A stretch of DNA of 22,914 nucleotides from a virus: positions 1 through 22,914 of the IMG/VR virus record IMGVR_UViG_3300037485_000560; one strand, written 5' to 3'. The position numbers were made by a program, and so were the translations under genes. The notes beneath the pieces were generated by a model. The model saw nothing but the letters and a program-made list of their open reading frames with translations, made no database searches and was not told where the DNA came from. Of the stretch, positions 2,922-20,423 are shown piece by piece; the first letter of the stretch is position 1, and every line of letters starts with the position of its first letter.

Positions 2922-2958
2922 ATTATTGAAATTTATATCTTATTATTACTATGCCAGA
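2922..2958. repeat. Direct repeat copy B at the 3' end of adhesin gene 2
   Basis: This is the second copy of the 37-base repeat at 1744-1780, differing at two positions. It covers the final codons and stop of the second glycine-rich gene. The two copies are in the same orientation about 1.18 kb apart, so recombination between them would remove one adhesin and the small gene between them. Confidence 0.8.
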
Positions 2959-3795
2959 TGCACCATTACCTCCTTTTGCCGTTCCTGCTCTTTCAGCACC
3001 ACCACCTCCACCACCTGTGTTTGTAGTGCCATTCATTGCATCTGCTGAACTACCATCGCCACCACCACCTATGCCACCTAATCCATAATTTAAAGGTGCT
3101 AAATAAATAGAGCCACCGCCACCGCCTCCATAATAAGCACCTGTTCCACCACTTATTAATGATAAACTACCTGCGCCTCCATTACCCCCAAATGTTCCTG
3201 TTCCATTACTACCAACTGCACCTGCTCCACCACCGCCACCGCTACCATAATATGGTCCAGTATTTGAGCCATTGCCTCCATTATTACCTTGCCCTGCCGT
3301 TCCATTTGCTCCTATTATTGATATACTACCATTATGAGGTGCGCCCGTTCCACCACCACCACTGCCACCACTTGCAGCGTTTTCTTGATGAGCACCCCCA
3401 CCTCCACCTCCAACAGACGTTATTGCATTAAAAGATGAGGTTGTACCAACTCCTGCGGGTTGGTTATATGTGCTAACTCCTGCACCACCACTACCAACAA
3501 CAACCGAATAAGTTTGTAATAAAATAGCTAAACCTGTGTTTGTTCTTAATCCTCCTGCTCCACCACCTGCTCCTGTTATGCCTCCATTACCACCGCCACC
3601 ACCTGCTACTACTAAGTATTCGACTACATTGTTTGGAGCAGTTCCCAAAGTGGTAACTACAAAATTATTGCTTGAATTAAAAGTGTGTACTTTGTAATCG
3701 CCATCGGTAGTAATAGTGCCACCTGTGGCAACTGTAAACGCTGCTCCACCACCACCACTACTTGCACTACTTTGAACAACTCCGTTTAAAATCAT
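2923..3795 (-). CDS. Glycine-rich receptor-binding/tail-tip adhesin candidate (paralogue 2)
   Basis: The product has 290 residues. The block at about residues 19-66 (GGTITTDGDYKVHTF, then PNNVVEYLVVAGGGG) is almost identical to the block in the paralogue at 1745-2584. A glycine-rich body with many Gly runs follows and ends GASGIVIIRYKFQ. The similarity also holds at the DNA level (about 3602-3727 against 2377-2502), while the central loops between Gly runs differ. That is the expected pattern for two adhesins sharing a scaffold and differing in specificity loops. The gene follows the anchor-type fibre gene at 3797-4240 with one base between them. Function is inferred from composition and position. 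Confidence 0.65.
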   Translation of the reverse strand: MILNGVVQSSASSGGGGAAFTVATGGTITTDGDYKVHTFNSSNNFVVTTLGTAPNNVVEYLVVAGGGGGNGGITGAGGGAGGLRTNTGLAILLQTYSVVVGSGGAGVSTYNQPAGVGTTSSFNAITSVGGGGGGAHQENAASGGSGGGGTGAPHNGSISIIGANGTAGQGNNGGNGSNTGPYYGSGGGGGAGAVGSNGTGTFGGNGGAGSLSLISGGTGAYYGGGGGGSIYLAPLNYGLGGIGGGGDGSSADAMNGTTNTGGGGGGAERAGTAKGGNGASGIVIIRYKFQ

Positions 3796-11269: not shown

Positions 11270-12211
11270 TTAAGATACCCAAGTTTGTACTAAGGCTGCA
11301 ACACCTTTCATATCGGTACGCATAATAGCTGCACCTAACATAACTTCCATATTGAAAATTGAGCCTAAAAATTCTGGGCGACCATTTCCGTTTGAGCCAC
11401 TATCATATAAAGGTGTAATAGTTCCCATAGCACGAGAAACTACTGTTGGATGCCAAGCAATACAAGCTAAGCGGTCATCTGCTGCTCCTGCTGTAATACG
11501 AGCCTTTGCACTTGTTCCTGTTTTTGTAAATACTGATACTGTTGGACGCATCATAATTTTAAATCCAAATAATTGTGCAACAATTCCACTCGCTAAAGTG
11601 TTTGTTCCATTTGCCATTTGAAATCCATTATAAGATGCTCTAACTACCTCAGAGATTGTGAATAATTCCCAAAACATATCTGAGTTCATTAATAAAACAC
11701 GACGTCCATCATTTGGTACGTTGTCTTTATCTAATTTTTTTGCTAATGCAGCAATATCTGCTAAAGCTACTGCCTTACGAGTTCCTGTTCCAGATGGTGG
11801 CAAAGATGTTCCTGCTGTACCTGTTGTTAAAACCATATTACCTGCTCCACTTGCTGTCCAAGCAATAGCAACCTCAGTTCCACAAGTGTCTACTAATGTA
11901 GAAATTTGTTGTCCGATTACTGAATTTTTCTTATCATAAGAACTTTGCAAAGAATCCAAATTAGTTACTAATGTTGGGTCTAATGCGTATTGATTCATTG
12001 CATAAGTTCTATCAGCATCAGTTCTTTGAGCAATAGTCAAAGGGAATGAAGATGGATTTACATTTACTGTTGGATTTGCTCCAGATTGTGGTAAGTGAAC
12101 AGTTCCGAAAGCGATATACTCGCTATGGTCGATTGAATAAGTTAAAAATTCTGCGTTTTGGTTTAAGGTTTCTTGTACCTCATTTATCCATATTTCTTTA
12201 ATTAATGCCAT
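11270..12211 (-). CDS. Major capsid protein
   Basis: The product has 313 residues. It begins MALIKEIWINEVQETLNQNA and shows capsid-like features: an N-arm, a P-loop region with RTDADRTYAMNQYALDPTLV, a central helix (KAVALADIAALAKKLDKDNV) followed by PNDGRRVLLMNSDMFWEL, and a C-terminal IAWHPTVVSRAMG. It follows the protease-scaffold gene and precedes the sheath, the expected place. The fold is probably HK97-like, but that is inferred from gene order and general pattern. G+C and codon use look somewhat higher here than in neighbours, as expected of a highly expressed gene. A hairpin follows its stop. Confidence 0.8.
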   Translation of the reverse strand: MALIKEIWINEVQETLNQNAEFLTYSIDHSEYIAFGTVHLPQSGANPTVNVNPSSFPLTIAQRTDADRTYAMNQYALDPTLVTNLDSLQSSYDKKNSVIGQQISTLVDTCGTEVAIAWTASGAGNMVLTTGTAGTSLPPSGTGTRKAVALADIAALAKKLDKDNVPNDGRRVLLMNSDMFWELFTISEVVRASYNGFQMANGTNTLASGIVAQLFGFKIMMRPTVSVFTKTGTSAKARITAGAADDRLACIAWHPTVVSRAMGTITPLYDSGSNGNGRPEFLGSIFNMEVMLGAAIMRTDMKGVAALVQTWVS

Positions 12212-13453: not shown

Positions 13454-13636
13454 ATGGATTATAAAATATATAAAAATTTAGACCATCAAATTGATAAAAA
13501 AAATAAATTCAAAATACGAGTTTCTACTTATATACAAGGCGAGTTAAAAAATAAATTTATGCAATCGTGTATAAATAAAAAAATATGTGAGGCTGATTTT
13601 TTGAGAGAAATTATTTCCACACATTTTAAAAAGTAG
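13454..13636 (+). CDS. Ribbon-helix-helix-like small DNA-binding protein
   Basis: The product has 60 residues from ATG 13454 (an in-frame TTG lies just before). Residues about 18-58 fit the ribbon-helix-helix plan: a beta strand FKIRVSTYI, a helix GELKNKFMQSCINKK, a turn, and a second helix ADFLREIISTHF. The protein is basic, as Arc/MetJ-type repressors often are. It is the only gene on the plus strand. It diverges from the protease gene and converges on the I-like gene with an 11-base overlap of the 3' ends. A near-palindrome lies 37-60 bases upstream of its start. A role as local repressor of late transcription or as an autoregulated inserted gene is inferred. Confidence 0.6.
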   Translation: MDYKIYKNLDHQIDKKNKFKIRVSTYIQGELKNKFMQSCINKKICEADFLREIISTHFKK

Positions 13637-14207
13637 ACACGTTGTCTTGATAACCTGCTATTGTATATTTTCTTGTAAAATTAAGCACTCTGTTTTGCCT
13701 CTCTACATTATTTGCTCCTAATGAATTAAACAATGCTAATGGTACTTTTGCTGCACACGTTATTGACGTTGCTCCCGTAGGCACAATTTGAAAATAAATA
13801 TAAGGTGGTGCGGTAACTTTAAAATGTTTATTAATTGCGTGTTCTAAAATAATTATTTGAGAATTATATTTTACCCTTTCATTTAATCCAATATAAGTAT
13901 CTAAAATTTTTCTCCAATTAGTTGCACTTAATGATGAGCCTGTTGGCAGCACACCAACGCTTGACGTTACTCTTAATTCATAAACTCCATTGTCTGTCCA
14001 CGTTATTCTTTGATATTTATAATAGGTAGTTGCATTGTTATAAGAATTATAAACAACTCCATCAAAATAATCTTTTAATAATAAATCGCAAATATATTTT
14101 AAAGGTGTTAATAATACTCTTAGCCACGCTATCTGTTTTGGCTTTCTTAATACTGATGGCAATAATTCCTCACTTGCCCTAAATGGATTAAATACAAATA
14201 AACTCAT
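13626..14207 (-). CDS. Baseplate gpI-like protein with CBM5/12-like insert
   Basis: The product has 193 residues. The N-terminus is helical (PSVLRKPKQIAWLRVLLTPL). Residues about 53-99 (NSYNNATTYYKYQRITWTDN, then GVYELRVTSS, then LPTG and NWRKIL) follow the chitin-binding CBM5/12 pattern: a TY-x-x-G/Y-x-x-V strand, an aromatic Y-E strand, then P..W. The C-terminal part has YNSQIIILEHAINKHF and a beta domain. The gene directly follows the J-like gene with a shared base, as gpI follows gpJ in P2/Mu-type baseplates, which is the main reason for the call. The insert could bind glycans or simply decorate the baseplate. Confidence 0.5.
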   Translation of the reverse strand: MSLFVFNPFRASEELLPSVLRKPKQIAWLRVLLTPLKYICDLLLKDYFDGVVYNSYNNATTYYKYQRITWTDNGVYELRVTSSVGVLPTGSSLSATNWRKILDTYIGLNERVKYNSQIIILEHAINKHFKVTAPPYIYFQIVPTGATSITCAAKVPLALFNSLGANNVERQNRVLNFTRKYTIAGYQDNVSTF

Positions 14208-15079
14208 TATACCGATGTAAAAGTAATTTTATCTAAAAATGTTTGCCCTACTGTTGTTTCTCCAATCATATAGCCAGAGTCTAAACTAACGGCAGGATAA
14301 ATAGTTGTTGATGCGTTTATTAAATAAGTCTTTGATGCAAATGCCACCGATGCAGGTCTTTGTGCAAGGTTTACAATACTTATGTCTGAAAATCCAACTA
14401 CTGATTGTATTTTATCAATTAATTCTTGTGTTTTAAATACAGGATTAATTCCCAAATTACTTATAAAATTATTTATAGCTAACAAACAATCATTTTTAAA
14501 ATTACCTGCATATTGTCCATAAAAATAAATAGTTGCCTCCATAAATAATAAATCGGGGTCTAATGAAACGCAATATATTGATTGTCCTGCTGCTGCTATG
14601 CCAATTCCTTTAATAGTTCCATTACCTGTATTACTATAATACCCTTGTATTGATGCTAATTCTAATACTGTTAATTTTACAGGTGGCTCATTTTTTGCTA
14701 AATATAAAGTGCACAATCCCACACCAGATAAAGAGGTTGCCCTTGTTATTATTCTTTTTGTTGCATCAACTGTAACATATTTAGGCACTAAATTGCTATC
14801 CAAATAAATTAATTGTGGTGTTGTTGCATCGTATTGAAATTCATAAGCCTTTGAAATTACCCAATAAAGAGAGGGTGCACTTCCTTGTGCTAATACATTT
14901 TCAATTTCTATTTTTTTAGCATCCATTAATTGCTCTAATATATTTTGACATTGTGCCACAATATATTTCCATAATTTATAAATACTTGTTTGAGATGGGC
15001 TGTTTAATGCACTTAATTCTGTTTGTGCAGCCTGCTCCTCATCCATTGTAGTTAATATCTCTTGCGTTGTTCTTGCCAT
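14207..15079 (-). CDS. Baseplate J-like wedge protein
   Basis: The product has 290 residues. It begins with a long helical part (MARTTQEILTTMDEEQAAQT, then YKLWKYIVAQCQNILEQLMD). A middle beta region has LYLAKNEPPVKLTVLELASI, and the C-terminal block DCLLAINNFISNLGINPVFK, then TQELIDKIQSVVGFSDISIV, is the (I/L)xxxLxxLxFN..hxxxxLxDxIxxVxGVxDxxI pattern of gpJ/gp47-type wedge proteins. It is shorter than many J proteins. Its location before the protease, away from the gp25-like wedge and hub, is unusual for contractile phages but is linked to the next gene in the I position. Confidence 0.6.
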   Translation of the reverse strand: MARTTQEILTTMDEEQAAQTELSALNSPSQTSIYKLWKYIVAQCQNILEQLMDAKKIEIENVLAQGSAPSLYWVISKAYEFQYDATTPQLIYLDSNLVPKYVTVDATKRIITRATSLSGVGLCTLYLAKNEPPVKLTVLELASIQGYYSNTGNGTIKGIGIAAAGQSIYCVSLDPDLLFMEATIYFYGQYAGNFKNDCLLAINNFISNLGINPVFKTQELIDKIQSVVGFSDISIVNLAQRPASVAFASKTYLINASTTIYPAVSLDSGYMIGETTVGQTFLDKITFTSV

Positions 15080-15603: not shown

Positions 15604-16056
15604 TTATCTTTTTAAATTTAATTCTTTTTTTAATCTATTGTCAATCCTTGTTTGTAATTTTTTATCTAATATTTTACTATCTCCCATAAATTTTCTTTTA
15701 GGCATTTTGAATGGGTATTTACCAAAAGCTAATCCCATTAATCCCTCATTATGTATTTTAGCATATATCTTTGTGCTCCAAACAACAACGTTCCATTCAT
15801 TTCTTGTTAATCTGCCTGCGTGATGCATAGAATTTTTTAACGCTCCCGTTTGAGTTAAAATTTTTCTATTCGCATAACGTTTTCTTGCTCTCTTTAATGG
15901 TTTCCATCTTTTAAAAGGCAAATCATTAAATCCCTCTTTATCAAATGATTGTTTAAAATGTTTTACTGACATTTCCCCAATCTCAGTCTTTAAGCCTTTT
16001 AAAGTTCTTTTTAATTTTTCTTTATCTAATTGTAATTTGTAGGCTTGTGACTTCAC
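15604..16056 (-). CDS. Virion morphogenesis protein (Mu gpG-like)
   Basis: The product has 150 residues and is very basic. It shows the phage virion morphogenesis family pattern: FKQSFDKEGFNDLPFKRWKP, KILTQTGALKNSMH, WSTKIYAKIHNEGLMG and a C-terminal PKRKFMGDSKILDKKL. In Mu this protein (gpG) acts in head-tail joining and is encoded next to gpF, as here. It overlaps the MuF C-terminal gene by four bases (ATGA). Role: tail-to-head connection or tail completion. Confidence 0.75.
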   Translation of the reverse strand: MKSQAYKLQLDKEKLKRTLKGLKTEIGEMSVKHFKQSFDKEGFNDLPFKRWKPLKRARKRYANRKILTQTGALKNSMHHAGRLTRNEWNVVVWSTKIYAKIHNEGLMGLAFGKYPFKMPKRKFMGDSKILDKKLQTRIDNRLKKELNLKR

Positions 16057-16409
16057 GGCTTAGGTAAGTTAAAATTTTTCTTTGCTAATTTAATATCTTT
16101 TTTATCCACTTTAAAATAAGGATGCTTTTTACTAAAAACTTTTTTTTCTTTTGCTGCATTAAATCTAAATATATCTGGGACTGATTTATGTAAATTTAAC
16201 CCTATTGTATTTGTTGAGGTTATACCACTTGACTCCAATTTTTCAACTCTGCACCTGCAATTCCAACCATTAGGAGGTAAATAAGAATCCCAAAATTTGT
16301 CTTCTACTTTTTTAACAACGTAATCTAATAAAGCGTGTTGTGGTCTTACTTTATTATCTTTTTTTGTTATATATCTTAAAAACTTTTCTTGTTTTATGCC
16401 TTTAGCCAT
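16053..16409 (-). CDS. Mu F-like minor head protein, C-terminal half (split gene)
   Basis: The product has about 118 residues from ATG 16409. It contains the conserved end of the Mu F-like domain: FLRYITKKDNKVRPQHALLD, FWDSYLPPNGWNCRCRV, and a basic tail. The matching N-terminal half lies in the overlapping upstream frame (16402-16866), which stops at 16402. The frame is open to an ATG at 16478, but the extra 23 residues overlap the other half's coding sequence and do not look like the family. The ATG 16409 overlaps the upstream stop by eight bases (ATGGCTAA). Either this is a natural two-gene split, a frameshift mutation, or a +1 recoding site. Confidence 0.65.
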   Translation of the reverse strand: MAKGIKQEKFLRYITKKDNKVRPQHALLDYVVKKVEDKFWDSYLPPNGWNCRCRVEKLESSGITSTNTIGLNLHKSVPDIFRFNAAKEKKVFSKKHPYFKVDKKDIKLAKKNFNLPKP

Positions 16410-16866
16410 TATCCCAATTTTCAAATTCAATCCAATCTTTTGCGCCTCTTGCTTGATGTTCTGCACTATCACATTCAACAGTTAAATAATCTACATTATA
16501 TTTATTATATATTTTAACTCCCTCTATTATAAATTCACTTTTATTTTTTATAGTTTCAATAGTTATTAAATCTCTAATCTCTCTAACTAATTGATATTGT
16601 TTTGCTGCTGCAAATGCATAAACATTATTAATAAATCCATTTAATACCTCATACTCTCGACTTCCATTTTCTAACTCATCTAAAGTATTTCCAAATCCTA
16701 TCTCAACAAACTCAATTAATTTTTGAGCAATTTTTAAATATTGATTTTGGTCTAAATTTTCAATAGTTATTTCCCCATCAAATACTCTATTCACAAACTT
16801 TACAGCATCTGTGTCAAAAAATATATTTATTTGTGCTAAATTAGTTAATTGGCAATGGTGTATCAT
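16402..16866 (-). CDS. Mu F-like minor head protein, N-terminal half (split gene)
   Basis: The product has 154 residues. The helical N-terminal region resembles the start of Mu F-like head morphogenesis proteins, with NVYAFAAAKQYQLVREIRDL, FIIEGVKIYNKYNVDYLTVE and AEHQARGAKDWIEFE. The last pattern normally leads straight into (F/Y)LxYxTxxDxxVRxxH, and exactly that continuation occurs in the +1 frame from 16409. The start overlaps the portal gene by 26 bases, a common portal-MuF coupling. On its own the protein lacks the conserved VRxxH and PPNGWNCRC blocks. Confidence 0.6.
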   Translation of the reverse strand: MIHHCQLTNLAQINIFFDTDAVKFVNRVFDGEITIENLDQNQYLKIAQKLIEFVEIGFGNTLDELENGSREYEVLNGFINNVYAFAAAKQYQLVREIRDLITIETIKNKSEFIIEGVKIYNKYNVDYLTVECDSAEHQARGAKDWIEFENWDNG

Positions 16867-18070: not shown

Positions 18071-18925
18071 TTACCAAAGTTGATTGTGATTTGGGGTATA
18101 ATAATTTGCTGCGTTGCCATATCTAATGGACATCCCCTGCTCTGGTGTAAATACTGGCAAATCTGCGTTTATGTTTCCTTTTGATACCGACTTCAGCCAA
18201 CCAATTGCACCACCAGAGTCAGTGGGGCTGTTTCCATTATATCTCTCTTTTCTTAAATCGGGTATGTTACGAGGATTTATTCTTGAATGCAAATGATATA
18301 AAGTTACATCAATTAAAAATAAAACTATTTGTTGATTTCTATTATCGCCTACTGTCCAATAAGTTGTATTTGTTGGCAATTGCCCTGTTATACTAAATAA
18401 AATTGGTGTCCCCCAAAATTCTGTATTCAAAGGATTTATATTTTTACATTGCTTTATGCAAGTATATTTATAATTATTTTCATACCACACTATGTCCCCA
18501 ACTTGATAAGTTGCATTATAATCAAACTCTGGGTTTGGTAATGTTACATAAAATAAAGATTTATCTGCACAAATTAAATTCCATTCTGCTAATAAAAATG
18601 CGTGAGGTACTGACCCTGCTATTGATGAGTAAATAAATCCATTATATAAAACTCTGTTGTTTGTTACATAAGTTGTTAAAGGATTAAATGCAGTTTCTGT
18701 ATATTCAACTAAGTTTTTACCATAAAAAATGCCACCACTTGTGTAAAGAGATGTGTTACTAAAAATTTCACCTACTTTATATCTTTGTGAAAGGTAGCCA
18801 ATCATTTCTGCTTGTGCTGCCTGTTCAACATCAATTTTAATTTGTTGGTTTGACTCTATAATTTGTAGCAAATTATCCGCTTGAATAATTCTATTATAAT
18901 CTAAATCTCGTAATAAACGTGCCAT
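18071..18925 (-). CDS. Mu gp36-like (DUF1320) head-tail adaptor with inserted CBM-like modules
   Basis: The product has 284 residues, about twice the usual length of about 140 for DUF1320. The ends match the family: MARLLRDLDYNRIIQADNLL followed by EMIGYLSQRY at the start, and QQIVLFLIDVTLYHLHSRIN, PRNIPDLRKERY, AIGWLKSVSKGNINADLP at about 198-257. Between them about 110 residues are inserted, with two CBM5/12-like units: about 80-118 (FNPLTTYVTNNRVLYNGFIY, then EWNLI) and about 134-171 (FDYNATYQVGDIVWYENNYK, then PLNTEFW), plus a short LPTNTTYW piece. The adaptor sits under the portal; the inserts could project from the virion. Terminase lies just upstream. Confidence 0.65.
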   Translation of the reverse strand: MARLLRDLDYNRIIQADNLLQIIESNQQIKIDVEQAAQAEMIGYLSQRYKVGEIFSNTSLYTSGGIFYGKNLVEYTETAFNPLTTYVTNNRVLYNGFIYSSIAGSVPHAFLLAEWNLICADKSLFYVTLPNPEFDYNATYQVGDIVWYENNYKYTCIKQCKNINPLNTEFWGTPILFSITGQLPTNTTYWTVGDNRNQQIVLFLIDVTLYHLHSRINPRNIPDLRKERYNGNSPTDSGGAIGWLKSVSKGNINADLPVFTPEQGMSIRYGNAANYYTPNHNQLW

Positions 18926-18977: not shown

Positions 18978-20423
18978 TTATAATCTAACTTGTGTTATAT
19001 GTTTATCACTACCTAATCTGTTTATTAATTTAATATCTCCCTTTTGATATTTATAAAAACTATCTGCAAATGCCTCACAAATAAAATAATCCATTCCATC
19101 ACTAAAATGGTGGTACTTTTCGTAACTTATTCCATTTTCTGATTTTGCTTTCTCTTTGTGTTTAGTTCCATCACTATCCTCTTTACCATATAGTAAATCA
19201 TTTTTAAGATATACAGACCTCTCGTATAAATATATATTAATTCCGTCAAAACCTTGCTCAAAAATTGTATTAATAAAATCCCCCCTTGTTTTTACAGGTG
19301 GGTGTGCTCTTGCTATTCTAAATGTTGGATGGTATTTTTCCAACTCAATACCTATAATTGTAAAATGATTAAATCCTTTTTCCCTACTTACGTCCTCTTG
19401 TTTACCAGACGGGTCGCCATAAATAAACAATCCACCAATGTGATTATTATATCGCCTTATAAATTCCCAACAGGTATCTTTAACTTTATTTTTTGGGTCT
19501 GCCATAGCAATCTCATCTATCAAATAAACTCCTTTGCCCTCTATTTGCCAAACAGAGCAACTCATATAAGGGTTAACGTTAAAGTCAAACGATATATGTA
19601 ATGGTAACTCTGGACGATATTTGTAATTAAATACATTTTTACCTAAATCAAAATTCTTATAAAATCTACCGCCAAGTTGTTTGTTACCCCAATTCCCTAA
19701 ACAATAAATGGTATAGTAATATGGGTTTCTTGTTTTTAAATCTAATAAAAATCCTCTAAATGAATCTGGCAACCATTTGTTATGAGTATAATTAGAATGG
19801 TGAACAGTATAAGTTAAATCCACGCTTGTAAATGCATCTATTTGTAAAGAGGTTGTATTGGTAAAATCTAATTCTGTTCTATCTCCAAAAAACCTTTTAT
19901 AAAACCAATGGTCGTTAAAGTTACCCTCCACCTCTGGATTAATGGTAAAAGTTTCTTGTAAGTAAGTCGCTTTCTCTGTTCTTATTGATGTGGTTATTGT
20001 AATAAAATCTGCCTCCGATGGGATGTCCTCTTCATACCACGCACCTGTCGGGTCTTTGATAGATTTTAATTTCTGTGTGTCATCACATCCTCTCGCTAAA
20101 AAAGAATTTCCATTTATACAAATAATTTCGAGAGGTTGCACTTTAAACACAAACATATTTTCCAAACCTAAGTCAAAAATAATATCCCTTATTGTTTGGT
20201 AACTACTATCTTTAATGGTTGCATAAGTATTTCTAATTAAAATATGCCTAAAGTATGGCTCACTTAAACATCTATAAATTAATTTTTTAGCCTCGAAATT
20301 ACTCTTTGATGAGCCTCGACCTCCATACATAATAACATATCGGTCTTTACAATTAATTAAAGGCATAAACTTTTCGTTTACTAATTCCCCCCATTCACAC
20401 CAATTAATTGTAGTGTATGCCAT
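18978..20423 (-). CDS. terL: Terminase large subunit (ATPase and nuclease)
   Basis: The product has 481 residues. The Walker A motif is at 34-41 (GGRGSSKS) and a Walker B-type block at about 128-132 (AWYEE) with catalytic Glu. A nuclease half follows with HISFDFNVNPY (Asp280), an acidic LIDEIAM, and IYGDPSGK (Asp337), the acidic residues that bind metal in the RNase H-like fold. It pumps DNA into the prohead and cuts concatemers. It lies 20 bases after the small subunit. The Phe-Asp-Phe-Asn-Val-Asn-Pro block places it among large terminases of Bacteroidota and Mu-like phages. The order small, large, portal region supports the call. Confidence 0.9.
   Translation of the reverse strand: MAYTTINWCEWGELVNEKFMPLINCKDRYVIMYGGRGSSKSNFEAKKLIYRCLSEPYFRHILIRNTYATIKDSSYQTIRDIIFDLGLENMFVFKVQPLEIICINGNSFLARGCDDTQKLKSIKDPTGAWYEEDIPSEADFITITTSIRTEKATYLQETFTINPEVEGNFNDHWFYKRFFGDRTELDFTNTTSLQIDAFTSVDLTYTVHHSNYTHNKWLPDSFRGFLLDLKTRNPYYYTIYCLGNWGNKQLGGRFYKNFDLGKNVFNYKYRPELPLHISFDFNVNPYMSCSVWQIEGKGVYLIDEIAMADPKNKVKDTCWEFIRRYNNHIGGLFIYGDPSGKQEDVSREKGFNHFTIIGIELEKYHPTFRIARAHPPVKTRGDFINTIFEQGFDGINIYLYERSVYLKNDLLYGKEDSDGTKHKEKAKSENGISYEKYHHFSDGMDYFICEAFADSFYKYQKGDIKLINRLGSDKHITQVRL

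Follow-up and report, generated by a model that had tools for sequence, protein, structure and literature searches.

What are modules resembling chitin-binding domains doing inside a phage head-tail adaptor? The question is raised by one gene of the window analyzed here, a virus record of 22,914 bases (IMGVR_UViG_3300037485_000560) that comprises a Mu-like head module and a contractile-tail module, with all annotated structural genes on the minus strand, and that most likely derives from a Mu-like, contractile-tailed phage of a Bacteroidota host. The initial annotation had described the product as a head-tail adaptor whose intact DUF1320 ends are interrupted by two units similar to carbohydrate-binding modules (CBM) of families 5/12. 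Its coordinates hold an intact open reading frame, to which we add the strand, and the gene lies within the Mu-like head module, beside the genes for the terminase and the portal:

18978 to 20423, minus strand: large terminase subunit, next upstream of the adaptor gene (Pfam Terminase_3, E 2.8e-36)
18071 to 18925, minus strand: adaptor gene, intact open reading frame of 284 aa
16841 to 18070, minus strand: Mu-type portal protein, next downstream of the adaptor gene (Pfam Portal_Mu, E 3.9e-77)

The 284-aa protein is a head-tail adaptor of the Mu gp36/DUF1320 type, as indicated by the adjoining portal gene, by Pfam and by the structural similarity of a one-unit relative to Mu gp36. Phage_Mu_Gp36 matches residues 198-257 (E 2.6e-4); the PF07030 score, 21.6 bits, is under the 24.7 cut-off that relatives exceed (L149, 43.3; L073, 38.1; L067, 29.0). 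CBM_5_12 matches two stretches of the protein (E 1.2e-3), under the curated cut-off. Both families are found together in 46 of the 48 homologues from viral contigs (E ≤ 1), with best values of 1.9e-9 for Phage_Mu_Gp36 and 1.2e-11 for CBM_5_12, which rules out a CBM match by chance. The one-unit relative L149, whose adaptor is 100% identical to that of Flavobacterium phage pippi8-1, gave an AlphaFold2 model (pLDDT 77) for which the top four Foldseek matches were JBD30 and Mu neck structures (TM-score over target 0.63-0.70, probability 1.00, E only about 0.02). The same order of helices is present in the model of the 284-aa protein, whose own Foldseek list has only CBM matches at the top. A phmmer search of L149 against the PDB returned designed repeat proteins only, which we judged spurious. 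The adaptor assignment of the initial annotation is thus borne out, and the ends that it described as intact do belong to the Mu gp36/DUF1320 family.

The major capsid protein is encoded at 11270-12211, and two other regions of the window deserve mention. The MuF-like region (16053-16866, minus strand) consists of two overlapping open reading frames, 16402-16866 and 16053-16478, the latter with a TTG start; only this second frame matches Phage_Mu_F, in the C-terminal part of the profile, and a split gene, a frameshift or an assembly error are possible. Near the tail end of the structural module, two glycine-rich paralogues (Gly_rich_2; 1745-2584 and 2923-3795, minus strand) are perhaps alternative tail-tip or fibre proteins.

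The boundaries of the insert were set with three insert-free references, the adaptors of Hankyphage p00, Flavobacterium phage fF4 and a Porphyromonas phage. Since these run from the end of helix 2 ('..IF') straight to the start of helix 3 ('G-x-x-R-N'), the insert occupies about residues 57-192, i.e. 136 aa, which rules out the stretch of about 110 residues at 78-190 proposed initially. The CBM5/12-like character of its modules stands but their number does not: a profile built from units B and C, together with the comparison with pippi8-type adaptors, rules out two tandem units in favor of three, one of which (A) is split by the other two (B and C). The parts of the protein are as follows:

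18758 to 18925, minus strand: adaptor N-terminal helical part, residues 1-56, aligning with insert-free DUF1320 adaptors (AlphaFold2 helices 7-11, 16-22, 27-45 and 51-54)
18692 to 18757, minus strand: unit A, first piece, residues 57-78, placed by the series of homologues and by the half matches of L067 to the unit profile (AlphaFold2 strands 58-60 and 72-75)
18566 to 18691, minus strand: unit B, residues 79-120, a complete CBM5/12-like module that lies within the hairpin of A (unit-profile domain E 3.4e-14, unit B itself being in the profile; also Pfam CBM_5_12; conserved core Y86, V92, Y99 and W115)
18536 to 18565, minus strand: unit A, middle strand, residues 121-130 (AlphaFold2 strand 123-127), aligning with 'LYYA' of L067 and 'FYTAL' of pippi8-type adaptors
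18398 to 18535, minus strand: unit C, residues 131-176, a whole CBM5/12-like module and second insertion into A, missing in L067 (unit-profile domain E 1.4e-14, unit C itself being in the profile; conserved core Y140, V146, Y148, Y154 and W171)
18350 to 18397, minus strand: unit A, last piece, residues 177-192 ('..LPTNTTYW..'), a partial unit-profile match (E 0.0074) that covers profile positions 27-41 and residues 184-198 of the open frame
18071 to 18349, minus strand: adaptor C-terminal helical part, residues 193-284 and stop, with Phage_Mu_Gp36 at 198-257 (AlphaFold2 helices 198-216, 223-230 and 239-249, then a C-terminal arm; pLDDT below 50 in the last 22 residues, 263-284)

The fold of the insert was analyzed with an AlphaFold2 model of the 284-aa protein run with 48 homologues (mean pLDDT 86, pTM 0.77, insert about 90-96), in which strands are confined to residues 58-192. 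Strands 58-60, 72-75, 123-127 and 190-192 would together form the split unit A, a pairing that we infer from the sequence and DSSP. In the PDB, Foldseek matched the chitin-binding domain of chitinase C (2d49; TM 0.75 over target) at 1.5 Å over 47 columns and Serratia ChiB at about 1.6 Å. Further matches were Vibrio chitin deacetylases and, from the Agrobacterium phages 7-7-1 and Milano, tail fibres or receptor complexes; matches that spanned several units had a high rmsd, presumably owing to differing relative positions of the domains. In BFVD it found the lotta8-2 protein and two viral proteins whose structures had been predicted independently and whose overall architecture is nearly identical (TM 0.82 over query): A0A6J5SUR1 and A0A6J5R4Q7, of which the second carries the name Gp36. 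Sequence searches of the PDB gave the paired CBMs of a Vibrio chitin deacetylase (E 1.6e-5) and, with the unit profile, the ChiA1 chitin-binding domain (E 4.8e-5), while phmmer of unit C alone returned a single crystallin match (E 0.58), judged spurious. The fold and the core Tyr and Trp (Y86/W115 in B, Y140/W171 in C) are shared with the CBM5/CBM12 domains of ChiA1 (1ed7), ChiC (2d49) and the Vibrio deacetylase pair. AlphaFold2 and Foldseek, run as a check for an integral fold or one unlike a CBM, thus gave a CBM5/12 fold, and the CBM-like modules reported initially withstood it. That the protein is an adaptor carrying nested CBM5/12-fold modules at one site is, in our judgement, very likely.

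How such an insert may have arisen can be followed in the relatives, which were collected from IMG/VR (74 loci; another 80 rows, many from the same contigs; and further scans), from phage records and from four bacterial-genome contigs. Those aligned share a single insertion site, between adaptor helices 2 and 3, at which they carry (i) no unit in the 141-aa adaptors of Hankyphage p00 (L079), Flavobacterium phage fF4 (L078) and the Porphyromonas phage (L080), (ii) one unit, 47-49 extra residues, in L073 and in pippi8-1 (L077), (iii) two units, 91 extra residues, in L067, and (iv) three units, about 136 extra residues, in the 284-aa protein and most other relatives. The Flavobacterium phages pippi8-1 and lotta8, both with one unit, have been isolated. 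Of 395 Bacteroidota genomes surveyed with PF07030, 29 had a match, nearly all in open frames of 131-185 aa and hence mostly insert-free, the profile being biased against inserted forms. Unit A corresponds to the outer module that is contiguous in L073 and pippi8-1; the unit profile matches that of L073 end to end (E 1.6e-5), and in L067 it finds a half (profile positions 1-16), a whole (2-42) and another half (20-41), the two halves being weak matches (E 0.13 and 0.012). Among pippi8-type adaptors, L149-L151 differ from L152-L153 by about 39 residues located in the hairpin of A and are otherwise alike. The simplest history, as read from these sequences, would be an insertion of A into the adaptor, of B into A, and then of C into A, the direction, gain instead of loss, being suggested by the nesting.

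Three further relatives depart from this series. A 347-aa adaptor relative (L072:5001-6041) apparently has one more unit, four in all, and was seen once only. Another (L070:647-1591) has unit B, with a longer, different sequence replacing unit C; other domains may therefore use the same site. The third (L139) is on a contig binned as Candidatus Peregrinibacteria and is probably a misbinned Bacteroidota phage.

Regarding the position of the insert on the virion, Mu gp36 is a dodecameric adaptor that has a helical domain and, in the portal clip, a C-terminal arm (PMC11915804). In neck 1 of phage Milano (gp14), the helical domain comprises residues 1-50, 141-159 and 189-199, the β-domain between them forms a peripheral ring, and five of its twelve copies are joined to the capsid; the same authors class Mu gp36 among adaptors without such a β-domain (PMC10491603). 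Comparing helix order with these residue ranges, the insert, like the β-domain of Milano, lies between helices 2 and 3, and by this analogy it likely lies at the periphery and projects outward from the neck. Its CBM5/12-fold units are not a six-stranded beta-sandwich with a head-joining loop as in neck 1 proteins of class 3, the Milano type. An adaptor is also a less odd place for an extra domain than first suggested, given the Ig-like domain of roseophage R4C and the beta-sandwiches of Milano, T4 and T7.

The insert was next examined for the features of a glycan binder. In CjCBM5, chitin is bound by three exposed aromatics (Y282, W283 and Y296), Y265 and W299 belonging to the core (PMC8449059). 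We located these positions in units B and C by their distance in residues from the core Tyr and Trp, without structural superposition; those corresponding to the exposed aromatics (103, 104 and 112 in B; 158, 159 and 168 in C) are non-aromatic in all 54 homologues, whereas the core Tyr and Trp are nearly invariant. Other aromatics are conserved at positions 110 (43 of 54 homologues) and 170 (48 of 54), and may have a structural role or contribute to a different surface. The dN/dS ratios were 0.13 for the adaptor core, 0.18 for A, 0.24 for B and 0.23 for C, from 200 non-independent pairs of 33 genes whose synonymous sites are already 31-44% different and thus fairly saturated. Selection is purifying, and relaxed in the inner-nested B and C; diversifying selection, a sign of receptor binding, was looked for in the dN/dS of these 33 genes and none was seen. 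Glycan binding as proposed in the initial annotation is therefore unsupported in that form, and we do not claim CBM membership in the functional sense, because the exposed aromatics, a defining feature, are missing from units B and C.

We propose that successive CBM5/12-fold insertions built a 136-residue arm between adaptor helices 2 and 3, A entering the adaptor loop, B the hairpin turn of A, and C a point further along A. If the protein is a dodecamer as in Mu, twelve arms, amounting to 36 modules, would encircle the neck on its outside, immediately under the portal vertex. Joining portal and tail, the ordinary work of an adaptor, would fall to the helical core. The arms, comparable to the beta-sandwich at the same site of Milano neck 1, would chiefly form a peripheral collar or brace that surrounds the portal clip and the capsid vertex, and would not act as chitin-type glycan binders. 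Our confidence in this explanation as a whole, nested modules and collar together, is evenly balanced. The collar or brace function of the arms, taken by itself, is proposed tentatively and remains somewhat doubtful; we favor it slightly because of the insertion site and the missing binding residues. The role of brace is drawn from the analogy of site with Milano, where the inserted domain has a different fold. Counting against it, the number of units varies and close relatives are one unit apart inside A, which a specific capsid contact would tolerate poorly, and conservation is lower in B and C than in the core.

A different function, which we consider unlikely but worth keeping in play given the promiscuity of the module and the precedent of the 936 phages, is that of an auxiliary adhesin, in which arms projecting from the neck bind polysaccharide weakly and multivalently and help adsorption, with capsule, exopolysaccharide, mucus or chitinous particles as targets, like the CBMs on the neck passage structure of 936 phages. 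CBM5/12 units in phage receptor-binding proteins and in other virion proteins here fit a role in display or adhesion: the fold of the arms is that of the receptor-binding structures 9rkv and 8fqc, the unit type recurs in other virion proteins of these phages, a CBM from the neck of a 936 phage bound host cells weakly in a fluorescence assay (PMC6669499), and the variable number of units and the weaker constraint on B and C would agree with it. Against such a role stand the 54 homologues with non-aromatic residues at the CjCBM5 ligand-binding positions of B and C, the dN/dS of 0.23-0.24 in these units with no diversifying selection seen, and the likely closeness of the arms to the capsid; for the adaptor domain of R4C, the authors judged adsorption unlikely (PMC10276861). 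Bolder and less probable still, a Bacteroidota Mu-like lineage might have turned its adaptor ring into a multivalent adhesion collar by repeatedly inserting the module into itself, with a non-classical carbohydrate-binding surface that lacks the aromatic platform.

It is more improbable that the arms are a tolerated proliferation of modules, i.e. units that spread among phage structural genes without a particular function and persist in an exposed loop since they are self-folding and harmless. Differences in unit number between close relatives, the existence of insert-free relatives and the same unit type in unrelated proteins speak for it, but the core residues of the fold and the length of the insert are conserved in dozens of relatives with three units, and the dN/dS of B and C indicates purifying selection. 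Finally, an insert that belongs to the adaptor fold itself and resembles a CBM only superficially is very improbable, for even if unit A is the most conserved unit and adjoins the helical core, the adaptor is complete in insert-free homologues and AlphaFold2 shows a separate all-beta block that matches a CBM fold at 1.5 Å.

The arrangement with nested modules, for which we favor a collar or brace function, resembles several known systems without coinciding with any. With Mu gp36 (9khx, 5ydn) and JBD30 gp41 (8rka), the protein shares the helical core, the adjoining Mu-type portal, the Pfam family and the fold of its one-unit relative, but in Mu gp36 helices 2 and 3 are not separated by an extra domain, and none is described for JBD30 gp41. 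Milano gp14, T7 gp11 and T4 gp13 have a β-domain inserted between the same two adaptor helices, which in Milano is one six-stranded sandwich bridging to the capsid, whereas here there are three nested CBM5/12-fold modules. The lactococcal 936 neck passage structure likewise places CBM-type modules at the neck of a tailed phage (a position assigned here by homology). There, however, the CBMs are BppA-like, one of them shown to bind host cells, and belong to a distinct collar protein that bears fibres, while here short modules without known binding residues are within the adaptor itself; in the 284-aa protein, a single chain with an adaptor core, Pfam and AlphaFold2 found no BppU-like ring domain or coiled-coil fibre. 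The R4C adaptor, dodecameric, also bears a peripheral beta-domain as decoration (here by homology), although that domain is an N-terminal Ig-like attachment and not an internal nested insertion. Unlike the CBM5/CBM12 domains proper, the modules lack the exposed aromatic platform and are attached to no enzyme. Searches of the literature on DUF1320 with carbohydrate binding, CBM5 on adaptors and CBM_5_12 in phage structural proteins did not find this arrangement.

CBM5/12-like units were also observed outside the adaptor. The gene at 13626-14207 (minus strand), which comes after 14207-15079, encodes a protein of unknown function whose homologues at the matching location in L060, L049, L033, L058, L064, L066 and L137 have one such unit each; the copy in the window seemingly retains only a degenerate unit, missed by the unit profile. 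In L148 (3899-4522), a DUF4054 virion protein (E 2.2e-12) has one unit near its N-terminus (E 2.1e-8); this second family of virion proteins apparently acquired the module type independently.

These results are relevant to the function of peripheral domains on phage necks. They also advise caution, as a CBM5/12 match in a phage structural protein does not amount to glycan binding unless the binding residues are checked. Adaptors are usually regarded as conserved structural parts of the virion; here, one is a platform that gains small nested domains one by one, and since intermediates with zero, one, two and three units are preserved in relatives, domain accretion in a virion ring is directly traceable.
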